Of a stretch of DNA of 64,000 nucleotides, positions 13,657 to 17,454 are shown in pieces. The DNA comes from Nitrosopumilus sp. b1 (GTDB lineage: Archaea > Thermoproteota > Nitrososphaeria > Nitrososphaerales > Nitrosopumilaceae), in the NCBI RefSeq assembly GCF_014078545.1, contig NZ_MU078723.1:124001-188000 (forward strand). The letters are read 5' to 3'. The notes under the pieces were generated by a model that saw only the letters and a program-made list of their open reading frames with translations, had not been told where the DNA came from and searched no databases. Both the position numbers and the translations under genes were made by a program. Each line of letters starts with the position of its first letter. The stretch's first letter is position 1.

Positions 13657-13821
13657 TTAAAATTCAATAGTTTTTCCTGCTTTAATTTTGACTTGAGTTT
13701 CGTTCATCTTGCCGTGCACATCAAGCCACGCTACATTTAACGTTGCGGAAGAATCAGAGGTCTCCTTTAGTTTTATCGAGTAAGCCCCTTTGAGTAATTT
13801 TGCAATCTTTGCATTCTTCAT
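13657..13821 (-). CDS. 54-aa basic hypothetical protein
   Basis: ATG-initiated ORF beginning MKNAKIAKLLKGAYSIKLKE, with a beta-rich pattern (SATLNVAWLDV, then ETQVKIKAGKTIEF at the end). Composition and regular alternation support a real small protein, possibly a beta-sandwich or barrel fragment. No family recognised. It lies between two structured elements. Confidence 0.55.
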   Translation of the reverse strand: MKNAKIAKLLKGAYSIKLKETSDSSATLNVAWLDVHGKMNETQVKIKAGKTIEF

Positions 13822-13874
13822 AACGAAATCAACATCGTCGATCTGGATAATTTAAATTTTAATTTTTAAAAAAT

Positions 13875-13942
13875 GATAACCGTCATAGTTTAGTGGTCGA
13901 AGTCTTTACCTTCATGCCGAGACCACTAAGCTAGAAGTTATC
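13875..13942. ncRNA. Structured small RNA candidate (68 nt)
   Basis: The two ends pair (GATAAC 13875-13880 with GTTATC 13937-13942). Inside, AGTTTAGTGGTC (13887-13898) pairs over 12 positions with GACCACTAAGCT (13921-13932), including one G-T pair, and the apical loop holds GAAG/CTTC. Read on the reverse strand it is preceded by TTTTATTT (13964-13971), ideally placed for a start at 13942, and followed by TTTTTT (13867-13872). Read forward it contains an A-box-like TAGTTTAGTGG but no T-arm or GTTCGAAT sequence, so it is not a normal tRNA. Orientation and function are undecided. Confidence 0.5.
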
Positions 13943-14054
13943 AGGATACCTTAGGTAAAAATGAAATAAAAGGCCTATTCTTCAAATAGCAAACAAATTT
14001 TTAAAAAAATCATTCATTTTGAATATTTTCAAAGGAAAATCTCTAGTTAAGGCA

Positions 14055-15113
14055 TCATCTTGTACGGTAACGAAGTATTGCCAAAACCGAATCATTGATT
14101 TTTAGCCTCTCTAGTATTTTTGGAGACGATACAAACTCTATTTTGGCCGATGTCGTTTTTGCCATCTCTAGCATTTTCATTATTTTATTGAATTGGGAAT
14201 CTGTATGATACTCTGCAGAAACAATTAGAGTATCCACGCTGGCATTTTGGAGTGCCTTGTAGATCACATCATTTTTCTTTGCAGTTAATCCTTCTTTGAC
14301 TAGCTCATCATACTTGGAAATAATTCTTGCTACATGTTTTCTTCTGTGCTGGTATAGATTGGAAATTATTTTTCTATGAACATCTTTTTGTGATGTCGAA
14401 AATGACAGTTCATCTACCATCCTACATTTTTCTTGTAGTCTTGAATCAATCATGCCAAGAAAGTTGTCTTTTGCAGAGCCTGTGCCGCCTACAAGTATTA
14501 ATTCAGAATCTGAATCCATCGTTCTTAGCTTGTCAGCAACCTTTTTGAAAAATACATGAATTTTCATTTTTCTTGCCCTTTGGAATCTCCCCTGACTCTG
14601 GCCTCCCTTTCTGTGTCTTCCTCGCAAATCAATTCCAAGACTGGCCTCTTGGACTATCTTATCCCCATGAATCTTTTGTATTTTAGCTGACTTTTGATCA
14701 AGAGTTACAAGAATTACGTTATAGTTTGCCTTTAGAATATCTCGAAATGGCTTGATGTATGGCTTTTTACTTGCCATGTAGATGAATGGAAGTTTCTTTG
14801 AGATGCCAATCTCTTTTGTGATTACTTTGCCGTTTTTTATCCATCCAAATATGCACAAAGTCTTTGTGAATTTACCTACAGAGGTTGGGTTTCTTTTGAG
14901 ATGAGTGATTCTCTTTTCAATCTCTAACTCTACTTTTTCAAGCTGTTTGTTTCTGTGTGTCTTTTGTAATAGTGAAATTGTCTCTTTGCCCTTTCCGTAT
15001 GGATAGTAAACTGAGATACACTGAGAATCAACGTGCTTTAAGTCATGAATAAACTGGTTTAGTGACAGCCACTCAGAGGGCTCAATAATGGAGTGCTCAG
15101 GAGTTTTTTTCAC
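14055..15113 (-). CDS. aRF1/Vms1-family GGQ protein (ribosome-rescue factor candidate)
   Basis: A 352-aa protein of the archaeal-eukaryotic release factor superfamily. The central GGQ loop is clear (GRHRKGGQSQGRFQRARKMK, about residues 168-187), followed by the RNase-H-like and C-terminal domains (ELILVGGTGSAKDNFLGM; VDTLIVSAEYHTDSQFNKIM). GGQ enters the peptidyl-transferase centre to release nascent chains. It is shorter than canonical aRF1 (about 410-420 aa), and the N-domain has HRNKQLEKVE where aRF1 carries NIKS, so stop-codon recognition is doubtful. It best fits Vms1/Ankzf1-like peptidyl-tRNA hydrolases that act on stalled ribosomes. It lies 148 bases downstream of aEF-2 on the same strand. 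Confidence 0.78.
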   Translation of the reverse strand: MKKTPEHSIIEPSEWLSLNQFIHDLKHVDSQCISVYYPYGKGKETISLLQKTHRNKQLEKVELEIEKRITHLKRNPTSVGKFTKTLCIFGWIKNGKVITKEIGISKKLPFIYMASKKPYIKPFRDILKANYNVILVTLDQKSAKIQKIHGDKIVQEASLGIDLRGRHRKGGQSQGRFQRARKMKIHVFFKKVADKLRTMDSDSELILVGGTGSAKDNFLGMIDSRLQEKCRMVDELSFSTSQKDVHRKIISNLYQHRRKHVARIISKYDELVKEGLTAKKNDVIYKALQNASVDTLIVSAEYHTDSQFNKIMKMLEMAKTTSAKIEFVSSPKILERLKINDSVLAILRYRTR

Positions 15114-15261: not shown

Positions 15262-17454
15262 TTACTCTTTATCGATAAACTCATCAACAGTTGGAGCATC
15301 TGGTGCCAATCCCTTTCTCTTTCGAATCTCAACTATTGCTTCAGATAATCTAGACTTTGGAACTTCTGCCCACATCTTAAAGTGAGAGTTCCACATTGCT
15401 TTCCCAGCAGTCTGTCCCCTCATCTCTTCAGATAGTGTAAAGGTCTCTGATGCTGGAATCTCACCTACTACGATACTTAGTGCACCTTTTTGTGACATGT
15501 CAAGTACTTTACCCCTCTTTCCAGAAAGGACAGTTGCTACGTTTCCAACCATGTCAGTTGGCACTCTAACTTCTATAGCTAAAATTGGCTCCAATAGTGA
15601 GGTACCAGCAGTGAGTAGTGCACCCATGCATGCACGACGTGAAGCAGGTCCTAATTGTGATAGACCTCTGTGTGCAGTATCCTCGTGTGGAACAAAGTGA
15701 GTAAATGTGAATTTACAGTCCCTCATCTGCTCTTTACAGAGTGGGCCTTCTTTCATTACTTCTTCAAATCCAGAGTTTATAGAGTCAGTTGACTCTCCAA
15801 CAAACTGGACACCTTTTGTTCCATTAATCATAACATTTCCACGTGAATCTAATTTCATAATTCTCTTGATAGTATCAGTATCCCATCCTTGGGCTTTGAG
15901 CAAGTCTGCCATCTCCTTTTTGTCTTTCATCTCACCGATTTGGCCAGAACGCAACATGTCGCCAATTTTTGGCTCGAGTGGTTCAACCTTCATGAAAATC
16001 TTGTTGTGTCTGTTTGGTGATTTTGACATGATAGGCTCACATGCGCCCTTGACTGTCTCTCTATAGTTGATCAAGGGTTCTGATGTAATAATTTCAATCT
16101 TAGTATCTTGAATACGGTGAGTTGCAACATCAAGGTGTAGCACACCCATTCCAGCAATGATAGTCTCACCGCTTTCTTCATCAATTTTTACTACAAGGTT
16201 TGGATCCTCAATGGTTAGTTGACGTAACACCTCAACAAGTTTTGGCAAGTCCTTTGGATGCTTTGGCTCAACTGCAACCTGAACTACTGGTTCAGAAACA
16301 TAGCTTACACCTTCAAACATTTTGATTCCGCTAACAGATGATATTGTATTACCAGAACGAGCTTCAATTAGCCCCATTAATGCGGGAATGTTTCCTGCGC
16401 CTAGCTCACCTACTTGTTCCCTTTGGTTTCCCATGAAAAAGTTTACTGATTGAATTCTTCCTTCACGTTTTGCATCAATAATGTTAATTGTTTGACCATC
16501 CTTTATTGTTCCAGAAAACAGTCTACCGACTGCCACAGGTCCTGCTGCCTTGTCAAGTACCATGTTTACTACCATCATGATGGTTGGACCATCATCTTTG
16601 CATGCAAGCAAGGCCTTTCCAATATCAGAATCTAGATCACCCTTCCAAATTTTTGGAATTCTGTATCTTTGTGCTTCATGTGGTGGGGGATGATGTTTTA
16701 CAACCATTCCAAGTACTGCTTCAGCTAGTGGTGCCTTTGCTACTAATTCATCTACTTTGCCATTCTGATAAGCATCAATTACATCTTTGAATGTGATTCC
16801 TTTTTCTTTCATTACATCAACGTTGATTGCCCACTTGTCTTTTGCAGATCCAAATGTTACACTAGCCTCCTGAATCTTTACCTTCCACTTGTCTTTGTAG
16901 TCAGGTTCTGCATAGGTGTCAATTAGGTCATTAAAGTTAGATACTACATTTGCAAGAGTCTCTTGCATCTTTTCAGGAGTTAATCTGAGTTCTTTGATGA
17001 GTCTATCTACTTTGTTGATAAACAAAACTGGCTTTACTCGCTCCTCAAGTGCCATTCTAGTTACTGTCTCAGTTTGAGTCATGATTCCCTCTACTGCATC
17101 ACATACTACTACTGCACCATCAATTGCTCGAAGGCTTCTAACCACTCTACCGCTAAAGTCTACGTGGCCTGGAGTATCAATCATGTTAATGACGTATTCT
17201 GTTCCTTTGTGGGTATAGTGTAATGTTACATTTGCTTGGTAAATTGTAATTCCTCTCTCTTGTTCTTCTTTATCAAAGTCCATTGCAAGTGCAGTTCCGG
17301 CTGCAGAGGGGGCAATAATTCCAGAGTGAGCTAAAAGGCTATCACTCATTGTTGTCTTTCCATGGTCTACGTGAGCAATGACACCAAAGTTTCGGATCTG
17401 CTCCTTGTTTTTGATGATCTTTAAGACCTGCTCAGTTGACTTGTACTTTGCCAT
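15262..17454 (-). CDS. fusA: Translation elongation factor aEF-2
   Basis: A 730-aa translocase GTPase that moves tRNA and mRNA through the ribosome. G1 is AHVDHGKTTMSDSLLAHSG, G3 DTPGHVDFSGRV, G4 NKVDRL. Domain II and III motifs follow (AGPVAVGRLFSGTI; IAGMGVLHLDVATHRI), and the domain IV tip HEDTAHRGLSQLGPASRR keeps the histidine that is modified to diphthamide in archaea. Length and domain order are standard. No other translation-factor gene is adjacent except the GGQ protein downstream. Confidence 0.97.
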   Translation of the reverse strand: MAKYKSTEQVLKIIKNKEQIRNFGVIAHVDHGKTTMSDSLLAHSGIIAPSAAGTALAMDFDKEEQERGITIYQANVTLHYTHKGTEYVINMIDTPGHVDFSGRVVRSLRAIDGAVVVCDAVEGIMTQTETVTRMALEERVKPVLFINKVDRLIKELRLTPEKMQETLANVVSNFNDLIDTYAEPDYKDKWKVKIQEASVTFGSAKDKWAINVDVMKEKGITFKDVIDAYQNGKVDELVAKAPLAEAVLGMVVKHHPPPHEAQRYRIPKIWKGDLDSDIGKALLACKDDGPTIMMVVNMVLDKAAGPVAVGRLFSGTIKDGQTINIIDAKREGRIQSVNFFMGNQREQVGELGAGNIPALMGLIEARSGNTISSVSGIKMFEGVSYVSEPVVQVAVEPKHPKDLPKLVEVLRQLTIEDPNLVVKIDEESGETIIAGMGVLHLDVATHRIQDTKIEIITSEPLINYRETVKGACEPIMSKSPNRHNKIFMKVEPLEPKIGDMLRSGQIGEMKDKKEMADLLKAQGWDTDTIKRIMKLDSRGNVMINGTKGVQFVGESTDSINSGFEEVMKEGPLCKEQMRDCKFTFTHFVPHEDTAHRGLSQLGPASRRACMGALLTAGTSLLEPILAIEVRVPTDMVGNVATVLSGKRGKVLDMSQKGALSIVVGEIPASETFTLSEEMRGQTAGKAMWNSHFKMWAEVPKSRLSEAIVEIRKRKGLAPDAPTVDEFIDKE

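Follow-up and report, generated by a model that had tools for sequence, protein, structure and literature searches.

A previously uncatalogued family of predicted hairpin RNA genes with a common promoter module in Nitrosopumilaceae

The element described here, found in a 64,000-nt stretch of Nitrosopumilus sp. b1 DNA (referred to as the window), is almost certainly a genuine RNA gene, conserved and with a promoter of its own, and not a chance fold. It belongs to a previously uncatalogued family, other members of which occur in dozens of related species. As far as comparisons between genome sequences can establish such features, they show that the stem exists at the RNA level, which strand carries the gene and in what region it starts, that it has a promoter and paralogues, and that Rfam lacks it. 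The best reading of the role of the RNA is that of a trans-acting hairpin sRNA, which we put forward tentatively, at a little under even confidence. The window copy has the following parts:

13990-14007, minus strand: upstream promoter element TTTTTAAAAATTTGTTTG, part of a module of about 75 bp common to all three forms of the family
13963-13971, minus strand: TATA-like box TTTTATTTC, 28 nt before the conserved start
13879-13943, minus strand: conserved core of the predicted RNA gene (A-short form, about 65 nt), 5'-UGAUAACUUCUAG...CUAUGACGGU-3', from the sister-species alignment and model matches in five genera
13930-13943, minus strand: conserved 5' flank UGAUAACUUCUAGC (family consensus UGAKAAC-N-UCUAG)
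13921-13929, minus strand: 5' arm UUAGUGGUC of the covarying central stem, from the alignment of 51 sequences
13899-13920, minus strand: apical part with the UCGGCAUG bulge followed by a 4-bp GAAG/CUUC hairpin, from fold and sequence
13890-13898, minus strand: 3' arm GACCACUAA of the covarying central stem, from alignment and sequence
13879-13889, minus strand: conserved 3' flank ACUAUGACGGU (family consensus CU-N-N-RACG)
13942-13937 and 13880-13875, minus strand: outer stem GATAAC/GTTATC of the window copy only, not conserved
13868-13873, minus strand: TTTTTT just 3' of the core, from the sequence, with no counterpart in the sister species

The core starts with TGATAAC at 13943 and finishes with GACGGT at 13879. 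The window element was more stable than all 200 dinucleotide shuffles (z −6.2 for the plus strand and −5.6 for the minus strand). The sequence-only reading had described an inner stem and an apical hairpin enclosed by an outer stem of 6-7 bp. The inner stem and the apical GAAG/CTTC are present, but the outer stem is lost in the sister species G001 of the same genus, in which GTTATC is replaced by GTGCAA, and it is also gone in Nitrosarchaeum; it is therefore a trait of the window copy and not of the family. Both flanks of the inner stem are kept mainly as sequence (UGAKAAC-N-UCUAG and CUNNRACG), with partial pairing possible between them. The family-wide structure, as judged from the alignments, is the inner stem with partly pairing flanks, and the outer stem falls outside the family definition. 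The T-run noticed earlier after the 3' end was located at 13873-13868 on the minus strand and is likely the termination site.

In the sister species, the element lies at the same place, between the genes for a release-factor-like protein and a HAD hydrolase, and is 91% identical by BLASTN. The local alignment of the two intergenic regions begins at the end of the upstream gene, covers the promoter and the RNA, and breaks off precisely with the closing GACGGT. The stretch from the TATA box to the start differs between the two species and the sequence on both sides of it is kept, which is the pattern expected of a promoter and a putative transcript. The release-factor-like gene (14055-15113, minus strand) adjoins the EF-2 gene at 15262-17454. 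Its product has eRF1_2, baeRF_family10 (baeRF10) and acVLRF1 domains and is possibly a ribosome-rescue factor; no viral relatives of the gene were found.

The BLASTN match in Nitrosarchaeum came in pieces. Together with a spaced pattern search, it led to elements in Nitrosarchaeum ECS25A1 and in a Nitrosopumilales MAG, the apical regions and neighbouring genes of which are unlike those in the window. The covariance model R1, built on these two sequences and those of the window and G001, matched in 87 of 250 Nitrosopumilaceae genomes (about a third), with E-values reaching ~1e-10, under a shortened calibration, for sequences outside the model. Strong matches occurred in five genera (g1, g4, which is linked to Nitrosarchaeum, g12, g15 and g19). 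When laxer filters were applied, g1 was found to carry an A-short copy only, and no convincing match appeared in other genera of the family or in three genomes of other families of the order. The pattern scan of genome contigs returned two Nitrosopumilales records and 19 scattered bacterial records; the latter were taken as chance matches, several of them matching on both strands as plain palindromes.

Three forms were distinguished by inspection: A-long (~85 nt, with the loop CUGAAAUNGAGUUUCCCCUC), A-short, to which the window copy belongs (apical UCGGCAUGAAG...CUUC), and the highly conserved sister form B with the layout UUGACGCCUUCG-stem-UAGGCAUGCUAUAAAC-stem-UUCCAAGACGUC. Form B folds as one long hairpin with isolated mismatches, and GGCAUG of the window's UCGGCAUG bulge is also found in it. 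The outer pairing, rejected as a conserved trait of form A, is present and covarying at the corresponding place in form B. The form B model R2 matched in 73 genomes at E≤1e-9, confined to g4, g12, g15 and g19, with one copy per genome and a near-invariant sequence, loop included. The apical loop contains a GCAUGC palindrome (loci L137-L155 and L252-L275), through which RNA-RNA (kissing-loop) dimers could form. The A-short model R3 confirmed extra copies and placed A-short in several g12 genomes, some with multiple, partly degenerate copies. The extra copies (L236-L243, L248 and L251, in G136, G150, G168, G188, G191 and G194), some with broken stems, suggest duplication and decay, judging by their sequences.

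Selection on the stem was examined in 51 sequences of form A. In its central stem (8-9 bp), 92.7% of the cells were paired vs 83.3% in the shuffled alignments, 61 cells were doubly changed vs 28 and the covariation score was 0.357 vs 0.197, with at most 0.144 in slid controls; the alignment was fitted to the stem and is thus biased towards pairing, a bias that the slid and shuffled controls are there to guard against. Compensatory changes, which the earlier reading had proposed to look for in both stems of homologues, were found in the central stem; the outer pairing of the window copy is not kept in the sister species. Among 50 sequences of form B, g19 included, G-U pairs outnumbered A-C by 53:1, and the outermost pair of the lower stem occurs as GC, GU, AU, CG and UA, i.e. 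in all four Watson-Crick types; a narrower set of 18 form B sequences was too conserved to be informative on covariation. Since a G-U pair would appear as A-C on the opposite strand, the asymmetry in form B shows that the RNA under selection is the one read from this strand. In form A, the G-U vs A-C counts point the same way but weakly (14 vs 7 in A-long and 4 vs 4 in A-short).

The TATA-like box that had been noticed before the 5' end on the reverse strand was confirmed at 13971-13963. In all 70 copies measured, TTTTA of the TATA box stood 26-29 nt from the conserved 5' motif, and this fixed spacing places the predicted start close to the 5' motif. The conserved module of ~75 bp upstream of the TATA box includes a TTAAACAAATGTTTGA-like sequence. 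Models of the module were trained on form B alone or on A-long alone, the window being in neither set, and both ranked 13971 (minus strand) first among ~128,000 positions of the window, with a margin over the next-best position of ~18 bits for the A-long model and ~9 bits for the B model; the neighbourhoods of tRNA genes gave no score. That models of one form rank the site of another form first indicates that the three forms use one dedicated type of promoter. An independent small RNA gene is predicted to have its own promoter at a conserved distance as well as compensatory changes with a G-U excess, and both were present. The occurrence in five genera, the compensatory changes, the fixed TATA spacing, the shared module and the lack of any Rfam or ARAGORN match support the earlier suggestion of a new small RNA family.

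We propose that a stand-alone gene on the minus strand would give rise to a hairpin RNA of ~65-75 nt, which would belong to a small family (A-long, A-short and B) driven in Nitrosopumilaceae by the common dedicated promoter module. The RNA would work in trans: a common protein, purely conjectural as a partner, would bind the conserved stem flanks UGAKAAC-N-UCUAG and CUNNRACG, and short contacts with targets would be made by the apical loop, which differs between forms (A-short and B have GGCAUG..., A-long has CUGAAAUNGAGUUUCCCCUC). The co-expressed forms would thus function together as hairpin sRNAs. No target was identified: in 9 of 14 genomes, the complement of the B loop (TATAGCATGC) occurs nowhere but in the RNA gene, and each of the other five has a single additional site, which makes extended perfect pairing with a target unlikely. 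The weak G-U excess in form A and the degenerate look of some A-short copies speak against the trans-sRNA reading. A broader reading is unlikely but still deserves attention: that two or three hairpin RNAs, specific to this lineage and regulated together, have a dedicated promoter and one protein partner in common and make up a regulatory system or RNP that is new and belongs to the Nitrosopumilus/Nitrosarchaeum group.

A housekeeping or structural RNP component, in which the hairpin is a protein-binding scaffold that does not pair with mRNAs, is somewhat improbable but is to be taken seriously. The near invariance of form B down to its loop, its single copy per genome and the absence of the loop complement elsewhere in those 9 of 14 genomes all fit such a scaffold. 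Its difficulty lies in form A, the loop of which is wholly different between A-long and A-short, and in the variable presence and copy number of the element, which most genera of the family do without.

We give a low probability to an unusual H/ACA-like pseudouridylation guide made of a single hairpin, with the stem flanks as the guide and the internal loop as the pocket. Form B does have a lower stem, a two-sided internal loop and an upper stem, but no ANA box follows the lower stem (form B reads CGUC-AUU, CGUU-ACU, CGUC-UUG etc.), and no kink-turn or K-loop was seen on inspection of the apical sequences of A-short, A-long and B. The best bipartite guide matches, sought in 16S and 23S rRNA only, did not score clearly above those to shuffled rRNA. 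A 12-nt match to 23S rRNA was rejected as an H/ACA target, as it lies partly within the stem and is lost in relatives.

Form A usually follows a cupredoxin gene or lies beside pyrG, with trpA or a zinc-finger gene converging on it; in the genus of the window, its neighbours are other genes. Form B has a place of its own; contigs carrying both forms commonly have it 10-60 kb from A and in the same orientation. These surroundings make it very improbable that the element is a cis-acting leader of a small downstream gene on the same strand or of the HAD gene. An ORF of 54 aa (13657-13821, minus strand), with no Pfam match, does begin 57 nt after the RNA core in the window, but the sister species lacks it, and most relatives have a convergent gene (trpA or a zinc-finger gene) on the downstream side. 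Action in trans is therefore favoured over that of a cis leader. An inverted repeat acting at the DNA level, as the end of a mobile element, an attachment site or the binding site of a regulator, is slightly less probable still. The central stem is an inverted repeat and additional, partly decayed A-short copies exist, but the G-U vs A-C asymmetry in form B and the fixed distance to the TATA box do not fit, the chromosomal neighbours are ordinary and inspection of the listed ORFs around the extra A-short copies revealed no transposase or integrase.

A decayed or split tRNA, the other origin considered by the sequence-only reading, can practically be dismissed: its one support is the A-box-like TAGTTTAGTGG on the plus strand, but this likeness (TTTAGTGG) is an arm of the covarying stem on the other strand, the element is conserved, no cloverleaf with a T-arm occurs in relatives and the element does not resemble the tRNA genes of this genome. 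The same reading was right that this is not a canonical tRNA, as ARAGORN calls none in the whole window, even with introns allowed. The covariance-model check that it had proposed was made against Rfam 15, where no family, tRNA included, was reached at the gathering threshold by the window, eight A loci or five B loci; the relaxed threshold gave only chance matches for the window, and the tRNA model RF00005 gave neither a cloverleaf with a T-arm nor a score above the cut-off. Several tRNA genes of this genome (L071, L076, L077 and L078) have introns near the anticodon, which is ordinary for these archaea.

Few cells in the ocean are more abundant than the ammonia-oxidising archaea of this family. 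The open-licence literature searched contained neither a description of the present family nor any conserved small RNA family special to Nitrosopumilaceae. Models, exact coordinates, strand and promoter are now given for a family of at least three forms, which existing transcriptomes could confirm, and the shared promoter module gives a starting point for asking how a particular group of RNA genes is turned on in these archaea.

The family can be compared with several known systems. Archaeal H/ACA guides are likewise single hairpins of ~65-75 nt with the arrangement of stems and loop seen in form B, but the element, besides having neither ANA box nor kink-turn, has stem flanks conserved beyond what a guide needs. 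Archaeal box C/D sRNAs are alike in size, in a UGA-rich 5' motif (UGAUGA in a few copies) and in UUGA or UAGA near the 3' end; the element differs from them by a stable covarying hairpin in the middle and the lack of a C'/D' pair. Assignment to box C/D was rejected, there being no CUGA box D (the 3' motif is UUGA, UAGA or UUAA) and most 5' motifs being UGAGAAC. Tan1, a 229-nt ncRNA of marine Euryarchaeota (PMC5069720), is also an uncharacterised ncRNA from marine archaea, but it is set apart, by description and not by sequence, by its length, its complex fold and the other phylum. The intergenic trans-acting sRNAs of other archaea, such as those catalogued in Haloferax volcanii (PMC3956466), are similarly short stand-alone intergenic transcripts with their own promoters, which for the present family are predicted; the distinction from them, again drawn from description and not from sequence, is that here several paralogues have one promoter module.
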